Positions 27,069 through 36,842 of a stretch of 64,000 nt of DNA are shown in pieces. Both the position numbers and the translations under genes were made by a program. This DNA comes from a bacterium. Lineage in GTDB: Bacteria > Bacteroidota > Ignavibacteria > Kapaibacteriales > UBA2268. Numbering within the stretch: the stretch's first letter is position 1; each line of letters begins with the position of its first letter. The notes under the pieces are model-generated. The model was not told where the DNA came from and made no database searches. It saw nothing but the letters and a program-made list of their open reading frames with translations. Location: contig JANJTB010000029.1 in assembly GCA_024711295.1 (NCBI GenBank), positions 1 through 64,000 on the forward strand, read 5' to 3'.

Positions 27069-27602
27069 ATGGAAATATTGGATTACTACAAAATGACAAA
27101 AGAGAAGCATATCTTGCTTTCTTTTAAAGGTGCTTTAAGTCAAGAAATACTTGTCGAAATGGGCAATCTCATAAAAAGCCATTTAAGTTTAAGTAAAAAA
27201 ATAAAAAAGATATTCTCTGTTTTTGTAGAATTATCCCAAAATATAATGCATTACTCCTCCGAAAAAGAAATCGTCAATGATAAGGAGGTCGGAGTTGGAA
27301 TTATTTTGTTTGTTGACTCAGCAGACCATTTTTTGATTTTATCCGGTAATCTGATTGAAAAAAATAAAGTTGATTCGATTAAAAAAAGAATTAATCATAT
27401 CAAGTCTCTGAATCCTGAAGAATTAAAAGAAATTTACAATGAACAGATTCGAAACCAAAGAGATCCAAACAGCAAAGGAGCAGGTTTGGGTTTTATTGAC
27501 ATTTGCAGAAAATCCAACAGTAATATTGATTACGAATTTTATCCAATTGACTCCAAAAATTCATTTTTCTCATTTATCGTAAAGATTGCAAAGGAAGACT
27601 AA
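27069..27602 (+). CDS. siaB: SiaB-type protein kinase (DUF6272)
   Basis: Cytosolic kinase-like protein of 177 residues with the GHKL-type ATP-binding pattern: an N-box with E54 and N58 in VELSQNIMHYSSE and a glycine-rich loop in SKGAGLGFIDI. This matches the SiaB family, whose Pseudomonas aeruginosa member phosphorylates the small protein SiaC on a threonine. Its next-door partner at 27605 is a SiaC homolog, separated by 2 nt, and a PP2C phosphatase follows, so the kinase/substrate/phosphatase order strongly supports the call. It begins a new transcription unit after a 160-nt gap. No diguanylate cyclase (SiaD) lies nearby. Confidence 0.87.
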   Translation: MEILDYYKMTKEKHILLSFKGALSQEILVEMGNLIKSHLSLSKKIKKIFSVFVELSQNIMHYSSEKEIVNDKEVGVGIILFVDSADHFLILSGNLIEKNKVDSIKKRINHIKSLNPEELKEIYNEQIRNQRDPNSKGAGLGFIDICRKSNSNIDYEFYPIDSKNSFFSFIVKIAKED

Positions 27603-27604
27603 TT

Positions 27605-27982
27605 ATGAATAACCTTATAATTGAAGGGACAAAATCAACACCCAGCATAAATTTTGACTATAATACGGGTCATTTATCAATTGCAGGCGAATCTTTCCCC
27701 GAAAATTTTTCTTTATTCTATGAAGTAATAATCAACTGGCTTGACAAATACATTAGTGAAAGCAAACCTATACAATTCGACTTCAGGTTTGTTTATTTCA
27801 ACACAAGTTCATCAAAAGCAATACTCGACATAATAGAAAAACTTGATAATTATCACAAATCCGGAGGAGATGTTGTTTTAAACTGGTATTATGAAATTGA
27901 TGATGAAGATATCTATGAAAGTGGCTTGGAATTTACAGAGAATTTAACCCTTAAATGTGATTTAATTGAGTACAATGGTTGA
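27605..27982 (+). CDS. siaC: SiaC-type regulatory phosphoprotein (DUF1987)
   Basis: Small cytosolic switch protein of 125 residues. It has the DUF1987 pattern TPSINFDYNTGHLSIAGES followed by RFVYFNTSSSKAILDI. T67 in the NTSS motif corresponds in position to the phosphorylated threonine of P. aeruginosa SiaC. In the known system SiaB phosphorylates and the PP2C enzyme SiaA dephosphorylates SiaC, and the unphosphorylated form binds and activates a diguanylate cyclase. Here the output partner is not in the window. The gene sits 2 nt after the kinase gene and overlaps the phosphatase start by 8 nt, which predicts coupled translation. Confidence 0.88.
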   Translation: MNNLIIEGTKSTPSINFDYNTGHLSIAGESFPENFSLFYEVIINWLDKYISESKPIQFDFRFVYFNTSSSKAILDIIEKLDNYHKSGGDVVLNWYYEIDDEDIYESGLEFTENLTLKCDLIEYNG

Positions 27983-29015
27983 TGTAAATAATCTCAACAA
28001 CAACGAAAGAATTTTTCTGCGTGAATTTATAGCTTATAACAAATCACGAGAAATAATGAATTCTGATGAACCAGACAAATTAAAGAGTGCTCTCTCGGAC
28101 TTGTCTGATGAGTATTTACATCTATTAAAACAAGCTGTCAAGTTGGTTAAGGTTTCTGATTCCAATCAATTAAAATTAAGAAATGCTCAATCAGTATTAA
28201 AAGAGCAAAGTGAAAAAATTGAAGCTCAAAATTCTGAATTACTTAAATCAAACCAAGAAAAAGAAGAAACATTAAAGAAACTTAATAATGAGTTATCAAA
28301 AGCAGCATCTTATGTTAAATCCTTGTTACCCAAACCATTAAAAAATCATAAATCGGGTTTAAATATATGTTGGAAATTTGAACCATCATCAAAACTTGGT
28401 GGTGATTTATTTGGCTATAAATTTTTTGACGAAAAGCATGTCATATTCTATTTGTTTGATGTTAGTGGGCATGGAATCGGACCTGCATTATATTCGGTAT
28501 CTGTATGTAATGCAATCAATGACGGAAATATCCTTCAGGTAGATTTCCTTAGCCCGGCAAGCGTATTTAGAGGTCTGAACAAAGTTTTCGATATGCGTAA
28601 GCACAATGACCTTTATTTTACAATTTGGTATGGAGTATATAATTTAGAGTCTAAAAAATTAAGGTATGCTTCAGCAGGTCACCCTCCTGCCATTTTGCTA
28701 TCAAAACATAATAACAAAAAACTTCCTCCCGCTGATAATTTTTTTATTGGTGGTCTCCCCAACTATAATTTTGAAGAAATGTCCATCAAACTTGACAAAG
28801 GAGATGTAATATATCTTTTTTCGGATGGTGCATATGAAATTAGAACAAATGATACGGAGTACTTTACTCTGCAAGAGCTTGAAACTCTTATCAATACCTA
28901 CGATGGAAATGATAATATTCTTGATATTATATATAATCACCTCAAACTAATCTCATACGAACTACCAGACTCATCACTTGAAGATGATTTTTCGATGATG
29001 AGAATCCAATTTTAA
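27975..29015 (+). CDS. Soluble SpoIIE/PP2C-type phosphatase (SiaA/RsbU-like)
   Basis: Protein phosphatase of 346 residues. A helical, coiled-coil N-terminus (about 50-110, rich in Glu/Lys/Gln) is followed by a PP2C SpoIIE domain with the metal-binding motifs KLGGDLFG, FDVSGHGIGPA, FSDGAYEI and LEDDFSMM. By position it is the likely dephosphorylating partner of the SiaC homolog. Unlike SiaA it has no transmembrane or HAMP segment. ATG 27975 is preferred to TTG 27966; it overlaps the siaC-like stop codon region by 8 nt. Its activity on SiaC, rather than on an anti-sigma antagonist, is inferred from gene order. Confidence 0.85.
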   Translation: MVDVNNLNNNERIFLREFIAYNKSREIMNSDEPDKLKSALSDLSDEYLHLLKQAVKLVKVSDSNQLKLRNAQSVLKEQSEKIEAQNSELLKSNQEKEETLKKLNNELSKAASYVKSLLPKPLKNHKSGLNICWKFEPSSKLGGDLFGYKFFDEKHVIFYLFDVSGHGIGPALYSVSVCNAINDGNILQVDFLSPASVFRGLNKVFDMRKHNDLYFTIWYGVYNLESKKLRYASAGHPPAILLSKHNNKKLPPADNFFIGGLPNYNFEEMSIKLDKGDVIYLFSDGAYEIRTNDTEYFTLQELETLINTYDGNDNILDIIYNHLKLISYELPDSSLEDDFSMMRIQF

Positions 29016-29227
29016 TTATCTACATTTTGTTATGATAAACTTTGATATTTTTTTAGTTTAGGTATGAATAAATAAATATTTAATAAACTAAAAAATATAT
29101 TTTGGTTTTTTGAAATAATATAGTTATTTTTAATGGTAACTATTTTATAATTAAACTAATTACTATTTGTTCACAGAAATACTTAGTAATTACTTATGTT
29201 ATAAATTACAGAATAATTAGGGCAATT

Positions 29228-31237
29228 ATGAATAAGTATTTTTTGGTCGTAATTTTTGTAGTTTATATTGGATTGACAAATGAATTAATTTGCCAGTTAG
29301 AAGGTAATTTAAGGATTGATTCATTAAGAAAAGAAATCCCAAAGCTTAAGCACGACACCTCGAAAGTTAATGCTTTAATTGATTTATCCTACACACTTTA
29401 TTTCTCCTACCCTAAAGAAAGTATAGCTTTGGCAAATGAAGCTCTTGAATTATCCCGTAAACATAACTTTAAGTTTGGAGAATCCAGAGCTTATAGTAGC
29501 CTGGGTGTAACCTATACATTTGTTAAATCTGATTTTGCTAGAGGATTAGAATACTTCTTAAAATCCCTCAATATTAACATGGCAATTAATTTAGAAAAAG
29601 GGATTGCATCTAATTATGGAAATATTGGTGCCAATTATCACATGCAGGGTGATACTGTAAGTGCCCTGGAATATTATCATAAAGCATTACAAATTAACAA
29701 GAAGTTAAAAAACAGAAGGGCTCAGTCAACTAACTTAGGTAATATCGGAATGATATTATCATCCAAAGGGGAAAATGAAAAGGCATTGGAATACTTAAAC
29801 CAAGCACTTGATTTAGATATTAAGGAAGGTTTCAACGAAGGTATTGCAAGAAACTACGGCAGAATTGGCTTAGTTTTCAAAAATAAAATGGACTTTACAA
29901 AGGCATTTGAATACTTTGATAAAGCACTCAAGATAAACAACGAACTTGGTAACGAGACTGATATTGCTATTTGGCTATCTAAAATAGCAGAAACTTACAG
30001 TTTCTTGACTCGTGATAGTATAATATCAAAATTAAAGTATGAAACTAATATATTGCTTGACAAAAGAATTAATTTCGAAAAAAGTAAATATTATTATAAC
30101 CAAGCAAACGAACTTAACAAAAAATTAGGAGAACAAAAGTATCGTTGCGAGAATTTGGCAGCACTTTCAGAATTATACTTTAACATAGGGGATTATCTTA
30201 ATGCATACAAGCTGCATAAGGAATACAAATTACTAAATGACTCCTTGTTTAATATTGAAAAAACTAAAGAAATTGCCAACATTGAAGATATTCACAAGGT
30301 AAAAATCAAAGACAAAGAGATTTCAATACTTAAGTATCAGAATGAGAGTCAAAAATTGCAATCGTATTTGCTATTGGGTGGTGTTTACGTAATGTTTTTC
30401 GGCTTTGCGATTACACTATATAGTTATTTATCAAATAAGAAATTGAATAATGCGCTGAAAATTCAAAAAGCAATTGTCGAAGAAAAGAATGAACATATTA
30501 TTTCATCAATTAATTACGCTTCTACAATTCAACATGCCATTCTTCCTTGGGAAAGTACATTAAAAAAGGCATTTGAAGATGTTTTGATTTATTACAGGCC
30601 TAAAGATATAGTTTCAGGGGATTCCTATTGGTTTCAAGAATTCAATGGAGTTAAATTTTTAGCGGTTATAGACTGCACAGGTCATGGAATTCCAGGCTCG
30701 ATGCTTGCAGTAATTGCTAATTCAGTTCTTGACGATGCAATTATAAGCAAACAACTTACAGATACAGCCAAAATTCTGAACCACATGAACAGAAAAGTAA
30801 CTGAAGTACTTAATCAGAAACTAGTAGAAAATAAAATTCGTGATGGTATGGAAGTTGCAATAATTGCTATTTACAAAGATAAAATTCAATTCTCAGGTGC
30901 TGGGCGCCCTTTGTATATATTCAATGAAACCATTGAAATTATAAAAACTGATAAGCGAGGTATCGCCGGAAGTTCTTCTGATACTTCTTATACATTTTCT
31001 TCTGTTGAATTACAGAAAAATTGCAATCAGACTTTCTACCTTACTTCCGATGGCTTTGCTGACCAAATGAACGAAAACAGTAAAAAATACAGCACCAAAA
31101 GATTTGTAGAATTGCTCAACAAAATTAGTTCGAAACCATTTAATGAGCAGCAAGTGATGCTTGATTATGAATTCGAAGCACACCGTGGCTCAAGAGAGCA
31201 AATTGATGATATTACGATTATTGGAGTTAGAATATGA
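29228..31237 (+). CDS. TPR-transmembrane-PP2C (SpoIIE) phosphatase, paralog 1
   Basis: Membrane signalling phosphatase of 669 residues. An N-terminal signal or anchor segment is followed by about seven TPR units (for example GIASNYGNIGANYHMQGDT). A transmembrane helix near 380-400 (LLLGGVYVMFFGFAITLYSYL), a short coiled coil and a C-terminal PP2C SpoIIE domain come next. Metal-site motifs are IVSGDSYWF, AVIDCTGHGIPGSM, LTSDGFADQ and DDITIIGV. The predicted topology puts the TPRs in the periplasm and the phosphatase in the cytosol. A 212-nt AT-rich gap separates it from the Sia-like trio, so it may have its own promoter. It overlaps the next gene by 4 nt. Confidence 0.85.
   Translation: MNKYFLVVIFVVYIGLTNELICQLEGNLRIDSLRKEIPKLKHDTSKVNALIDLSYTLYFSYPKESIALANEALELSRKHNFKFGESRAYSSLGVTYTFVKSDFARGLEYFLKSLNINMAINLEKGIASNYGNIGANYHMQGDTVSALEYYHKALQINKKLKNRRAQSTNLGNIGMILSSKGENEKALEYLNQALDLDIKEGFNEGIARNYGRIGLVFKNKMDFTKAFEYFDKALKINNELGNETDIAIWLSKIAETYSFLTRDSIISKLKYETNILLDKRINFEKSKYYYNQANELNKKLGEQKYRCENLAALSELYFNIGDYLNAYKLHKEYKLLNDSLFNIEKTKEIANIEDIHKVKIKDKEISILKYQNESQKLQSYLLLGGVYVMFFGFAITLYSYLSNKKLNNALKIQKAIVEEKNEHIISSINYASTIQHAILPWESTLKKAFEDVLIYYRPKDIVSGDSYWFQEFNGVKFLAVIDCTGHGIPGSMLAVIANSVLDDAIISKQLTDTAKILNHMNRKVTEVLNQKLVENKIRDGMEVAIIAIYKDKIQFSGAGRPLYIFNETIEIIKTDKRGIAGSSSDTSYTFSSVELQKNCNQTFYLTSDGFADQMNENSKKYSTKRFVELLNKISSKPFNEQQVMLDYEFEAHRGSREQIDDITIIGVRI
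31058..31237 (+). repeat. Homologous 3' end shared by the three phosphatase paralogs, copy 1
   Basis: The last 180 nt of paralog 1 (from GCTGACC to the stop) align base for base with 34234-34413 and 36624 onward at an identity clearly above the rest of these genes. It encodes the final PP2C segment from ADQMNENSKKYSTKRFVEL to DDITIIGVRI. It is the most divergent of the three copies. Confidence 0.75.
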
Positions 31238-34200
31238 GAAAAACAATACTTATTTTTATAATGGCTTTAATTAGTATTTCCTTTATTCTGTTTGCTCAGA
31301 AGAATAAAGATCAGAAGGCAAAAAAGACAGATAAAAAGAAAGTTGAAATAAACAAATCTAACACAAAAACTGGAAAAGCAAGGCTGGATTCGTTGCTACG
31401 TGAGTTTAATTATTGGAAGAATCAAATTAAAATAACTACCGGCTACGCTGAAATTCCTTTTATAGCTGATACAAACTATATAGACTTACTTAATAGATTA
31501 TCACATGAATTTTTAAACAAAGACTCCCTCAAAAATATTGATTTTGCAAACAAAGCTCTAGAATATTCAAAATTAATTAATTATACAAGAGGTGAGGGTA
31601 TAGCTTATAATCAATTAGGAAATCATTATAACAAGTATAAATATTTTGAACAATCCGAGCATTATTACAAGCTTACTTTTGAAAAATCAAAAGAAGTTAA
31701 TAACTGGGAATATATGGGTGTTGCTGTCATGAATATGGGTTGGCAATTCTCGAATTTGAGAAAATATGATTCAGCATTGATAAAATATAATGAAGCATTA
31801 ACTTATTATGATAAAGGGAAGGTTCCGCTTTCCAGATACAATGCAATTTTCAATCTTAAAAAAAATGCACTGAGAAATCAAGGAAAAATTAATGAATCAA
31901 TTCATAATTTCGAGCAGATGCTATCATTCGCCCAGTATAATGGTGATGCTGACTTTTATTACAGTGCTTTAAATGATTATGCAGCTTTCTACTCAGATCT
32001 GGGAGATAAAATAAAAGCTACTGAATTAATGAAAGAGGCTTATGAGTTTGCTAAATTAAAAGAGATGAATGATGTTGAGTTACTCTCTTTAACTAACTTG
32101 GCTTCTATGTACGTAGCAAATAGATCAATTAATGAAGCAGTTGATTACAATGATAAAGCATTAAAATTATCAATTAATAAAAATGATACTGAATTTAGAG
32201 GAATAATCTTCAGAAATTTGGGTATTGTACATTTGATGAAGGGAGAAAACAAATTAGCAGACTCACTCTTTAACTTATCTAAAGAACATTCAAAAAAATA
32301 TCGTACATTAGATAATTATATAAGTGATATTATGCTCATTGGATTAAAATATTGGGAAAATGATGAAGCCGATATTGCATTGGAATATTATCTTGAAGCT
32401 GAAAAAGAAGCTGTAAAATTACCATTTGGTACTTCAAGCGAAGGTATGTTGAATTATAATATGTCTTTAATTTATCAGAAGAAGGGGCTATATTCCAAAT
32501 CTTTAGAATATGCAGTTAAAAATTTGAAAAGAGCTGAAAAGCAGAAAGATTCACTTGACATTGCACTTTCATATTCATCAATTGCAAGTATATACTATAA
32601 TTTAAAGGAATTAGATAAAGCTATTGATTATCTGAACGAAAGTATAAATATCTACAAAAAATATAAAATTAATAATAGGTTAGCTTTATCTTATTACAAT
32701 ATCTCACTTTTTTACAAGGGAAAAAATGAAATTGATAAATCCATTGCAGCTTTACATGAATCATTAAAATATGCAGAATTAAATAAAGATTTTAGTACAA
32801 TAATCTTAGTTCAAGGTACTTTAGCTGATTTAGAGTTATCAAACAGCAAAATTAAAGACTACGACAAGGCAATAAAATCCAGACTCAGAAATGTGCAAAT
32901 TTTTGATTCATTAGGTGAAAGATCATCATTAGCTTATGAATATTATAAGATTGGTTATTATTTCCATGAACAATATGCAGATACAACAATTAATGATAGC
33001 GTCAAGATTACTGAGTTTCTAAAATCTGGGTACGATTATAAAGAGAAAGCACTTAATTTATATAAGAAAACTAAAAATCATCAAAAAATTGTTAGCTTAT
33101 TAAAGGAATTAAGCTATATTAGCCAAGAGATGAACGAACCTAAAAGGGCTCTTGATTATTACATCGAGTATTCAGAACTAAAAGACTCATTACAAAAAAT
33201 TGACAATCAGAAAGAGCTTGCTGATTTAAAATCAAAAAGAGAACTCGAAGTCAAAGAAAAGGAAAATCAATTACTTTTTCAAAAAAGTGAGCTGCAAAAC
33301 CTTGAATTATTGCGACAAAAACAGGGCATTGCTCTTTTAGGCAAAGAAAAAGAGATTCAAAAATTAGCTCTTGATAATGAGATAAAAGAAAAAAATGATA
33401 AAGAACAAAAACTGAAATTAGCTGAGCAGGATAGAATTATCAAGGAAGGAATAATAAAATCACTGGATAGAGAAAAAGACCTTCAAAATGCTCAGTTAAC
33501 CACACAGAAATTCCAAAGAAATTTCTTTTTATTAGGGATAATAATACTTTTGATCCTGATAATTTTAGCTTACATCAGGTCGAGAGAAAAGAAAAAATTG
33601 ATTGAAAAGTTATCAATTCAAAATAATGAAATTGAATCTCAAAAATCACTTCTCGAAGAAAAGAATACCGAGATTGTTGATTCAATAAACTACGCTGCTA
33701 CAATTCAAAATGCACTTTTGCCTTGGTCAAGTGTACTTAATAATAGCTTTAAAGATCATTTTGTTATTTATAAGCCAAAAGATATTGTATCAGGAGATTC
33801 TTACTGGTTTCAGGAAGTTGATGGTATTAAGTTTTTGGCTGTAATTGACTGCACTGGTCATGGTGTTCCCGGCTCAATGCTTACAGTAATTGCTAATTCA
33901 GTATTAGATGATGCTGTACTGAGTAAGAAATTAACTTCAACCTCCGAAATTTTAACATATATGAATGGAAAAGTGACTGAAGTATTAAATCAAAGATTAG
34001 TAGAAAATTCAATTCGTGATGGTATGGAAGTAGCTTTACTTTCAATTCAAAAAGGTAGTATTCAATTCTCCGGTGCGGGTCGACCCCTATATTTGAAAAA
34101 TGGAACGATGGAAATTATTAAGACTGATAAGCGAGGAATTGCCGGACAAAATGATAACGATAACTACAATTATTCATCAGTAGAAATTAAGAAATCTGAT

Positions 34201-34413
34201 AATCTAATTTTATATTTATCTAGTGATGGATATGCTGACCAGATGAACGAAAACAGCAAAAAATACAGCACCAAAAGATTTGTAGAATTGCTTGACAAAA
34301 TTAGTTCGAAACCATTTAATGAGCAGCAAGTGATGCTTGATAATGAATTCGAAACCCACCGTGGCGCAAGAGAGCAAATTGATGATATTACTATTGTTGG
34401 AGTTAGAATATGA
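31234..34413 (+). CDS. TPR-transmembrane-PP2C (SpoIIE) phosphatase, paralog 2 (longest)
   Basis: Largest of the three tandem paralogs (1059 residues). A signal or anchor segment (MRKTILIFIMALISISFILF) leads into a Lys-rich linker, then around twelve TPR-like repeats up to about residue 650. A long coiled coil rich in Lys/Glu/Gln follows, then a transmembrane helix near 770-790 (LLGIIILLILIILAYI) and the PP2C domain (IVSGDSYWF, AVIDCTGHGVPGSM, LSSDGYADQ, DDITIVGV). The sensory part is nearly twice as long as in paralog 1 while the catalytic domain is conserved, so the paralogs probably read different inputs and share a substrate. The start and stop both overlap neighbours by 4 nt. Confidence 0.85.
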   Translation: MRKTILIFIMALISISFILFAQKNKDQKAKKTDKKKVEINKSNTKTGKARLDSLLREFNYWKNQIKITTGYAEIPFIADTNYIDLLNRLSHEFLNKDSLKNIDFANKALEYSKLINYTRGEGIAYNQLGNHYNKYKYFEQSEHYYKLTFEKSKEVNNWEYMGVAVMNMGWQFSNLRKYDSALIKYNEALTYYDKGKVPLSRYNAIFNLKKNALRNQGKINESIHNFEQMLSFAQYNGDADFYYSALNDYAAFYSDLGDKIKATELMKEAYEFAKLKEMNDVELLSLTNLASMYVANRSINEAVDYNDKALKLSINKNDTEFRGIIFRNLGIVHLMKGENKLADSLFNLSKEHSKKYRTLDNYISDIMLIGLKYWENDEADIALEYYLEAEKEAVKLPFGTSSEGMLNYNMSLIYQKKGLYSKSLEYAVKNLKRAEKQKDSLDIALSYSSIASIYYNLKELDKAIDYLNESINIYKKYKINNRLALSYYNISLFYKGKNEIDKSIAALHESLKYAELNKDFSTIILVQGTLADLELSNSKIKDYDKAIKSRLRNVQIFDSLGERSSLAYEYYKIGYYFHEQYADTTINDSVKITEFLKSGYDYKEKALNLYKKTKNHQKIVSLLKELSYISQEMNEPKRALDYYIEYSELKDSLQKIDNQKELADLKSKRELEVKEKENQLLFQKSELQNLELLRQKQGIALLGKEKEIQKLALDNEIKEKNDKEQKLKLAEQDRIIKEGIIKSLDREKDLQNAQLTTQKFQRNFFLLGIIILLILIILAYIRSREKKKLIEKLSIQNNEIESQKSLLEEKNTEIVDSINYAATIQNALLPWSSVLNNSFKDHFVIYKPKDIVSGDSYWFQEVDGIKFLAVIDCTGHGVPGSMLTVIANSVLDDAVLSKKLTSTSEILTYMNGKVTEVLNQRLVENSIRDGMEVALLSIQKGSIQFSGAGRPLYLKNGTMEIIKTDKRGIAGQNDNDNYNYSSVEIKKSDNLILYLSSDGYADQMNENSKKYSTKRFVELLDKISSKPFNEQQVMLDNEFETHRGAREQIDDITIVGVRI
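34101..34316 (+). repeat. Near-identical block in phosphatase paralog 2 (copy of 36491-36706)
   Basis: This 216-nt block differs from 36491-36706 (offset 2390) at only three positions by direct comparison. The 200 nt immediately upstream (33901-34100 against 36291-36490) differ at about 24 positions, many in third codon positions. The abrupt change suggests recent gene conversion or recombination between the tandem copies. Confidence 0.88.
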
Positions 34414-36842
34414 AAATGTACTTTCAGATTATTTTTGTATTCCTTATTATCAACATTTTATCAGTATTAAACGTAACATCCCAAAATAAGGGACCAACAA
34501 TGGTTGATTCATTGATAAATGTTTCAAAGAAAATTAAAGAAGATACTAATAAAGTTAAAATTTATTATCAAATCGCAAGAACTTTCATACAAAATGAATA
34601 TGAATTTGATAAAGAATTTGAAAATTCTACATTTTATGAATATGCAAATAAAGGTCTGAACCTGTCAAAGAAAATAAATTTTGTAAGAGGAATTGGTGAT
34701 TACTATAGAGTAATGGGTAGTTTCAATTGGAGTATTGAAAAAATAAAAGAAGCAATAGAAAACTTTGAAACATCAATAAATTATAGTAAATATTTAGATA
34801 CAATTAGTGTTGCTCGGACTTATTATCAGTTAGGTGTATTAAACTCAATTAGCGCAAATTATACAAAATCATTGGAATACTTACTTAATGCTTTAAAATT
34901 GTACGAATCTATTAATGATACTAAAGGCGTAGGTAGTTGTTTAAGTGATATTGGCTCACTCTATCTTTACCTATCAGATTATAATGAATCAGAAAAATAT
35001 TTGTTAAAAGCATTAGAGATTAACGAAAAGAATAAGGATACTTTTTATCTTAAACTCAATTATTCAAATTTAGGATTAGTTAAAGATGCAAAAAGTGAAT
35101 TTAAAGAGGGATTAAAATATCAATTAAAAAGTTTAAAACTTTTGGGTTCGGATATTAATAAGGATCATATTACATCTTATATTAATTTAGGAAATAGTTA
35201 TTTAAGGTTAGTTGATTATAAAAATGCAGAAATGTACTATCAAATGGTAATAGATTCTTCAAAAGTATATAATTGTGAAACTTGTAAAGTTCTTGGTCTT
35301 AGCAGGTTTGCTAATCTGATAAATTCAAGAATTAAAAATAAAATTAAAGATATTGATTACAAATTGGATTCAATTGATATAGAAAATCTAAACAAAAGTA
35401 TTAGATATTTAAATGAGAGTTTACAAATTTTCCAAACAAATATCAATTTTAAAGAAATTATCACTGTTAAACTCTTACTGTCAGAAACTTATGAATTGAA
35501 AAATGATTTTAGTAGTGCATTTACTACATTCAAAGAAGCTGTCAATTTGCAAGATTCAATTAGTACGATTGAAGTTAAAACCAAGATTGCAGATCTTGAA
35601 TCAAAACGTGCATTAGAGATACAAGAAAAAGAAAATCAAATTTTATTAAAAGATAATGAATTAATAAATGCTACCCTTATTCAAAATAAACAACAACTGA
35701 CTTTAGCGGAAAAAGAAAAGCAATTGCAACATTTAGCATATTTGAAAGAACAAGCAGAAAAACAAGAAAAGGAAAAGCAACTTACTCTATCCGAAACCCA
35801 AATGAAATTACAAAAAAGTCAAATAGAATCATTAGATAAAGACAAAGAAAGACAAAATGCAGAATTAAAGACAAAAAGTTTACAAAGGAACTTCTTAATT
35901 GCTAGTGCAATTGTTTTTATAATATTATTCTTGATTGCATTCATTCGATTTAGAGAAAAGAAAAAATTAAGTGAAAAATTATCATTACAGAATGCAGAGA
36001 TTGAAAGACAGAAAAATTTAGTAGAAACCCAGAAACAATTTCTTGAAGAGAAAAATCATCAAATAATGTCATCAATTTCTTATGCAGCAACAATACAGAA
36101 TGCGATTTTGCCCTGGGAAACAAGCATAACCAATTCCTTTGATGAAATTTTTATCCTTTTTAAGCCAAAGGATATAGTTTCCGGTGATTCGTATTGGTTT
36201 CAAGAAGTTGACGGTATTAAGTTTTTGGCTGTAATTGACTGCACCGGACATGGTGTTCCAGGCTCGATGCTTACAGTGATTGCAAATTCAGTTTTGGATG
36301 ATGCTGTCCTAAGTAAGAAATTAACTACTACTTCTGAAATATTAACTTATATGAATGGAAAAGTTACTGAAGTATTAAATCAGAGATTAGCAGAAAATTC
36401 AATTCGTGATGGAATGGAAGTAGCTTTACTTTCAATTCAAAAAGATAGAATTCAGTTCTCAGGTGCTGGAAGACCACTCTATTTAAAAAATGGAACGATG
36501 GAAATTATTAAGACTGATAAGCGAGGAATTGCCGGACACAATGATAACGATACCTACAATTATTCATCAGTAGAAATTAAGAAATCTGATAATCTAATTT
36601 TATATTTATCTAGTGATGGATATGCTGACCAGATGAACGAAAACAGCAAAAAATACAGCACAAAAAGATTTGTAGAATTGCTTGACAAAATTAGTTCGAA
36701 ACCATTAAGTGAGCAGCAAGTTCTGCTTGATAATGAATTCGAAACCCACAAGGGAAACAGAGAGCAAATTGATGATATTACTATTGTTGGAGTAAGAATT
36801 TCAAAAAAAGGCTTGAATAAATCAAGCCCTTTTTTGAAATAA
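34410..36842 (+). CDS. TPR-transmembrane-PP2C (SpoIIE) phosphatase, paralog 3
   Basis: Third tandem paralog (810 residues): signal or anchor segment, about seven TPR-like repeats, coiled coil, transmembrane helix near 495-515 (FLIASAIVFIILFLIAFI), second coiled coil and PP2C domain (IVSGDSYWF, AVIDCTGHGVPGSM, LSSDGYADQ, DDITIVGV). Its two sisters stop right after GVRI, but this one continues with SKKGLNKSSPFLK. The extra codons run through an inverted repeat that looks like the operon terminator (36803-36835). Translation therefore ends inside or just past the hairpin. The start overlaps paralog 2 by 4 nt. The 3' part is almost identical to that of paralog 2. Confidence 0.85.
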   Translation: MKMYFQIIFVFLIINILSVLNVTSQNKGPTMVDSLINVSKKIKEDTNKVKIYYQIARTFIQNEYEFDKEFENSTFYEYANKGLNLSKKINFVRGIGDYYRVMGSFNWSIEKIKEAIENFETSINYSKYLDTISVARTYYQLGVLNSISANYTKSLEYLLNALKLYESINDTKGVGSCLSDIGSLYLYLSDYNESEKYLLKALEINEKNKDTFYLKLNYSNLGLVKDAKSEFKEGLKYQLKSLKLLGSDINKDHITSYINLGNSYLRLVDYKNAEMYYQMVIDSSKVYNCETCKVLGLSRFANLINSRIKNKIKDIDYKLDSIDIENLNKSIRYLNESLQIFQTNINFKEIITVKLLLSETYELKNDFSSAFTTFKEAVNLQDSISTIEVKTKIADLESKRALEIQEKENQILLKDNELINATLIQNKQQLTLAEKEKQLQHLAYLKEQAEKQEKEKQLTLSETQMKLQKSQIESLDKDKERQNAELKTKSLQRNFLIASAIVFIILFLIAFIRFREKKKLSEKLSLQNAEIERQKNLVETQKQFLEEKNHQIMSSISYAATIQNAILPWETSITNSFDEIFILFKPKDIVSGDSYWFQEVDGIKFLAVIDCTGHGVPGSMLTVIANSVLDDAVLSKKLTTTSEILTYMNGKVTEVLNQRLAENSIRDGMEVALLSIQKDRIQFSGAGRPLYLKNGTMEIIKTDKRGIAGHNDNDTYNYSSVEIKKSDNLILYLSSDGYADQMNENSKKYSTKRFVELLDKISSKPLSEQQVLLDNEFETHKGNREQIDDITIVGVRISKKGLNKSSPFLK
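36491..36706 (+). repeat. Near-identical block in phosphatase paralog 3 (copy of 34101-34316)
   Basis: Partner of the block at 34101-34316: 213 of 216 positions match. Identity falls again after the shared ACCATT at the 3' edge, where paralog 3 reads LSEQQVLLDNEF and paralog 2 reads FNEQQVMLDNEF. Confidence 0.88.
36803..36835. terminator. Bidirectional terminator overlapping the 3' end of a coding region
   Basis: GGCTTGA (36810-36816) pairs with TCAAGCC (36822-36828) around a 5-nt loop, extended by an A-run on the left and a T-run on the right with one mismatch. It can act on both strands. It serves the phosphatase operon (plus) and the converging acyltransferase gene ending at 36856 (minus). 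It lies inside the last codons of phosphatase paralog 3. Confidence 0.82.

Follow-up and report, generated by a model that had tools for sequence, protein, structure and literature searches.

In the window analysed here, a stretch of bacterial DNA of 64,000 nucleotides, six genes probably constitute an extended Sia partner switch in which a phosphatase serves as the output. The model we favour has several sensors feeding one SiaC-type phosphoprotein, which would switch a soluble PP2C on, probably toward a STAS-type target; the target of the switch protein here is likely to be a second phosphatase, not a c-di-GMP enzyme. The docking helix carried by this soluble PP2C appears, from sequence comparison, to be present in four or more further types of output protein.

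All six genes lie on the forward strand, and their open reading frames were found with the lengths, coordinates, overlaps and gap that an earlier note on this DNA had reported. The first encodes a SiaB-type, GHKL-like kinase (27069-27602, 177 aa) that matches NF038262 (4e-53), PF19788 (2.7e-42) and PDB 6kko_A (3e-22), and is separated by 2 nt from the gene for a SiaC-type phosphoprotein (27605-27982, 125 aa; PF09345 7.5e-40, PDB 6kko/7e6g 1.7e-25), which likewise bears out the families proposed in that note. The third gene, for the soluble PP2C that we propose as switch output (an N-terminal helical stalk followed by an RssB/RsbU-type PP2C), starts either at TTG 27966 (27966-29015, 349 aa) or at ATG 27975; the ATG is likelier because the homologue in the sister species also opens with MVDIKNL, and it yields the 8-nt overlap with siaC that had been described before. 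A gap of 212 nt (29016-29227) follows, in which scans found neither terminator-like sites nor promoter-like sites on the coding strand, although such scans say little on co-transcription. Beyond it lie three sensor phosphatase genes that overlap by 4 nt each. Sensor phosphatase 1 (29228-31237, 669 aa) has a signal-like N-terminus, TPRs, a transmembrane segment near aa 381 and a PP2C domain at 413-669; the second (31234-34413, 1059 aa) is TPR-rich, with a transmembrane segment near aa 763 and PP2C at 803-1059; the third (34410-36842, 810 aa) has TPRs, a transmembrane segment near aa 494 and PP2C at 541-797. Their matches to NF038263 are at 1.7e-51, 9.2e-53 and 6.5e-52, respectively.

SiaB and SiaC are each present in one copy genome-wide. 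SiaB scores 115 bits against an equivalog cut-off of 225 and is therefore called only a family-level member (NF038262); SiaC (104 bits) is also below its cut-off of 150. In the alignment to PDB 6kko_A, the Glu that has been proposed as the catalytic residue of Pseudomonas aeruginosa SiaB is matched by E54 and N58 of the VFVELSQN segment. SiaC T67 (codon 27803-27805, in YFNTSS), previously singled out for its place in NTSS, corresponds by alignment to the Pseudomonas phospho-site T68. Neither SiaC nor the stalk region had relatives in the viral contigs that were scanned.

The four phosphatases, all of which have a SpoIIE-type PP2C domain and have kept its metal-binding aspartates, fall into two classes. 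TPRs are found in three of them, and by crude hydropathy each TPR protein has a signal-like N-terminus and one transmembrane segment while the soluble PP2C has none, in line with the earlier description of one soluble and three membrane-bound enzymes. The TPR-membrane proteins match the NCBI SiaA model NF038263 over linker and PP2C at 1e-51 to 1e-53, missing its equivalog cut-off because the sensor part differs, and the sole PDB relative of sensor phosphatase 2 is SiaA itself (6k4e, 1.2e-33). The soluble PP2C has its best match in RssB (PDB 2.5e-10) and a weak one to the SiaA model (5e-9); the seven PP2Cs of the genome that lie outside the window match that model at 2.4e-9 at best. In a tree of 41 PP2C domains, 30 SiaA-like ones, including P. 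aeruginosa SiaA, split from the RssB/RsbU-like domains at 100/100; the three TPR-membrane PP2Cs of the window group with Pseudomonas SiaA in a 100/100 clade, and the three stalk PP2Cs in the tree fall in the RssB/RsbU-like part. As judged by profile, PDB match and tree, the three membrane proteins are SiaA-type phosphatases. The soluble protein, judged by its PP2C domain, is placed outside SiaA and within the RsbU/RssB-type class, with a helical linker and intact metal-binding aspartates. Its AlphaFold2 model has one helix running from aa 36 to 120 into the PP2C domain, with low confidence in the stalk (pLDDT about 50-78).

Identity among the three sensors is 71-88% in the catalytic domains and 28-31% in the sensor parts, which argues for diverse inputs feeding one conserved catalytic part. 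The number of SiaA-type genes per SiaC is 3:1 here, 6:1 in the sister species and 7:1 in genome G018, and about 1:1 in G029 and G037. Two further sensor arrangements were observed among relatives. At L029:10162-12039 a SiaA-type PP2C and SiaB form a single 625-aa fusion protein, whose gene lies upstream of siaC and of the gene for a small membrane protein with a stalk, and at L028:12311-14476 a SiaA-type PP2C near siaBC has a sensor part resembling iron-only hydrogenase plus ferredoxin, which suggests a redox input.

The gene after siaC varies among relatives, encoding a class III cyclase, a histidine kinase, a small membrane protein or a PP2C, and at their N-termini these varied proteins share a segment some 46 residues long; the same motif heads GGDEF proteins beside siaC. 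A profile of this stalk built from 8 proteins and run on 4287 ORFs retrieved 16 at E<=1.6e-10, the next match being at 0.27. Half of the 16 were new to the profile. These eight come from Desulfobulbaceae, Leptospiraceae, Chloracidobacterium, a mixed-label bin, Kapaibacterium and Bacteroidota, and every one lies downstream of siaC. In control searches, ORFs with shuffled residues and profiles with shuffled columns gave a best E-value of 0.28. In the soluble PP2C the putative SiaC-docking stalk occupies 28074-28241 (profile A5, 4.5e-22), with a core, K59-L71 in the 349-aa numbering, that reads KLVKVSDSNQLKL (28140-28178). In the PDB alignment its S64, D65 and Q68 stand in register with SiaD S82, D83 and Q86. 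In the crystal structure the contacts of SiaD with SiaC include K77, V78, R80, I81, S82, D83, Q86 and M88; S82 and Q86 bond the SiaC phospho-acceptor T68, whose neighbours Y65, N67 and S69 are met by Q86 and D83 (PMC8457831).

When searched against the PDB, the first wide stalk profile had SiaD (7e6g) at rank 4 (E 0.12, with both SiaD motif copies in register), a 16-sequence profile placed it first of 177,635 (E 0.14), and a narrower profile of 46 columns only fifth (E 1.9). The NCBI SiaD model, which was built independently of our profiles, matches seven stalk proteins (one PP2C, three cyclases and three histidine kinases) at E 1e-4 to 0.05; the window's stalk has no direct match to it, its link to SiaD running via the family profile. 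We therefore regard the segment as the SiaD docking stalk because of the contact register and the NCBI model matches, the PDB E-values alone being modest. Among 38 distinct stalks the position of D83 is D in all 38, that of Q86 is Q in 37, and that of S82 is S or G in 37. The single Q-to-E change at the Q86 position is in a stalk-bearing membrane protein (L136:1414-1836) of G007, a genome without SiaC. Some proteins of 77-85 aa, encoded immediately after siaC (L195:1477-1710, L196:1390-1647 and L197:1504-1761), consist of the stalk only, their frames lacking an output domain; they are possibly adaptors or competitors. At L046:10434-12926 one siaC is followed by a stalk-GGDEF protein, siaB and a stalk-histidine kinase, i.e. 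two outputs on one switch.

The association of stalk and SiaC extends to the genome scale. In 395 genomes drawn across the phylum, SiaC was present in 21, the stalk in 17 and both in 16 (Fisher 3e-23, ignoring relatedness), and the co-occurrence recurs in five families (f1, f7, f12, f17 and f42). Out of 28 stalk genes, 18 are directly after siaC and two are one gene later; seven of the eight unlinked ones are in SiaC genomes. The unlinked stalk proteins (L139, L140, L141, L194, L199-L201 and L203), nearly all in SiaC genomes, include histidine kinases (L139-L141) and class III cyclases (L194, L199), and are likely to be remote outputs of the same SiaC switch. Weighing against the model, SiaC and SiaA-type genes are present in the relatives G005 and G017 and a stalk was not detected, and most siaBC loci of Bacteroidales have neither a SiaA-type nor a stalk gene adjacent.

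The organism's own genome holds 11 SpoIIE-type PP2C domains, four of them in this locus, and one stalk protein, namely the soluble PP2C (5.6e-20). The next match, a 956-aa ORF, was rejected as a second stalk protein since its E-value of 0.6 is at background level. No GGDEF output is encoded at the locus, and the earlier remark that no cyclase is visible holds genome-wide, the only match being weak (50 bits) with a degenerate signature (INTDTYCIL); as it lies on another contig and is without a stalk, it was discarded as a hidden output. The DeoC-family aldolase and the carboxyl transferase whose genes follow siaC at a group of loci in Bacteroidota were also dismissed as outputs, being without a stalk.

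The earlier note took the soluble PP2C as a replacement for SiaA, with all four phosphatases acting on SiaC, in which case the output would lie elsewhere. We consider this unlikely. It is true that siaC adjoins and overlaps the soluble PP2C gene, that SiaC is STAS-like and RsbU-class PP2Cs are well known to act on STAS proteins, and that stalk docking could deliver phosphorylated SiaC or provide feedback. However, the soluble PP2C falls outside the SiaA clade and bears a SiaD-type docking helix, and the genome has no other stalk protein to serve as output. Moreover, Pseudomonas SiaC no longer docks once it is phosphorylated (PMC8457831), and on this basis docked SiaC would not be what the PP2C takes as its substrate. 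The different PP2C class and the SiaD-type stalk are why the soluble PP2C is best read as the output, and its gene also has the position of that for SiaD, the output in Pseudomonas. Convergence of several sensors on one phosphoprotein, as first suggested, is thereby retained for the three TPR phosphatases and given up for the soluble one.

With the soluble PP2C as output, the circuit would run as follows. Three membrane sensors, whose TPR domains differ and are probably periplasmic, would present near-identical SiaA-type PP2Cs; SiaB would phosphorylate T67 of the single SiaC, and the three SiaA-type PP2Cs would strip that phosphate. Through its NTSS loop, unphosphorylated SiaC would dock at S64/D65/Q68 of the soluble PP2C's stalk, ordering the stalk as a parallel coiled coil and so turning the PP2C dimer on. 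The direction of this effect is predicted from two precedents, as SiaC switches SiaD on by ordering its stalk into a dimer (PMC8457831) and RsbT switches the RsbU PP2C on by ordering the linker into a coiled coil (PMC12143880). One may also consider the opposite sign, in which bound SiaC would keep the soluble PP2C inhibited or sequestered and the PP2C would be active when SiaC is phosphorylated: the sequence suggests docking only, the sign being borrowed from SiaD and RsbU, yet in both of these binding activates, in RsbU through linker ordering (PMC8457831, PMC12143880), and the opposite sign is accordingly quite improbable. The activated soluble PP2C would probably dephosphorylate a STAS-type protein encoded elsewhere in the genome, so that one partner switch would control a second; the genome encodes seven small STAS proteins and three RsbW-type kinases as candidate targets, making a second partner switch our best guess for the substrate.

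The tie between the sensors and siaBC, which had been drawn from adjacency, now has further support in the SiaA-type profile, PDB match and tree and in co-occurrence: among 40 relatives, SiaA-type genes are present in 8/8 SiaC genomes vs 1/32 others (Fisher 1.2e-7). SiaA-type genes adjoin siaB in many relatives and are fused to it in G011. Conserved adjacency of siaBC and the TPR array holds in part: the sister species has kept siaB-siaC-PP2C, but its six tandem SiaA-type genes (L127:2946-17482) are on another contig, and adjacency is therefore not what ties the two halves. (This array is preceded by a PrkA-type kinase gene and is interrupted at L127:9841-11716 by MpaB/rubber-oxygenase-like and Pyr4-like terpene-cyclase genes.) A TPR-SiaA beside siaBC does occur in another genome, a member of the Desulfobulbaceae (L045, JAGXRP010000014.1) in which TPR-SiaA, siaB, siaC and stalk PP2C form one run; this shows SiaA-type sensors and a siaBC-stalk PP2C tied directly. 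That the array works independently of siaBC and lies next to it here by accident, as the separate contig in the sister species and the 212-nt gap might be taken to indicate, is highly improbable in view of its SiaA-type catalytic class, the neighbourhood and fusion with SiaB in relatives, and the co-occurrence with SiaC.

The only enzyme type on which SiaC is known to act is a diguanylate cyclase. A literature search of partial coverage, and hence weak as evidence, turned up neither the shared motif nor any SiaC output that is a PP2C, class III cyclase or histidine kinase. DUF1987 (SiaC) proteins have been suggested, in a general way, to modulate the proteins next to them (PMC8457831), and coiled-coil linkers have been proposed to allow the exchange of regulatory modules among phosphatases, cyclases and histidine kinases (PMC12143880). 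The stalk fits the latter proposal and adds class III cyclases and a docking partner absent from that work. A short target-marking motif makes the outputs of SiaC switches predictable from sequence, for at least five kinds of protein, and allows single-residue tests. We lean toward the view that the stalk is a portable address tag on dimeric outputs. If so, a GGDEF protein, class III nucleotide cyclase, histidine kinase, PP2C, or membrane or stalk-only protein could be placed under SiaB/SiaC by the tag, and each genome would tune the number of inputs (SiaA-type copies) separately from the type of output; here the tag on a PP2C would create a phosphatase-to-phosphatase relay from the Sia switch to a classical STAS switch. 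For this organism, a testable circuit of three inputs, one switch and one phosphatase output replaces that of four phosphatases on one protein.

Compared with known systems, the locus is close to SiaABCD of P. aeruginosa, sharing a SiaA-type PP2C, a SiaB kinase, a SiaC phosphoprotein and, after siaC, an output gene whose helical stalk carries SiaC-docking residues. There, however, the output is a GGDEF cyclase and here a PP2C; SiaD has two docking motifs and the soluble PP2C one; and a single SiaA, first in its operon, contrasts with three TPR SiaA-type sensors downstream. As there is no GGDEF at the locus and the sole genomic match is degenerate, the system is Sia-like in its working and not a SiaABCD orthologue. 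The Desulfobulbaceae locus, identified in this analysis, differs in having one sensor, upstream of siaB. In Bacillus subtilis, RsbU and RsbP, two PP2Cs, converge on one STAS protein, and in RsbT-RsbU (as in RsbP/RsbQ) a partner binding the helical linker of a PP2C switches it on, as proposed here, although RsbT is a kinase homologue and not a SiaC/STAS-like phosphoprotein. Finally, HptB-HsbR-HsbA-HsbD and BgrSTUWV are partner switches that act on a non-sigma output enzyme via a STAS-type partner (PMC8457831); they differ from the present circuit in that the partner is a STAS-domain protein rather than SiaC, and the output a diguanylate cyclase rather than a PP2C.
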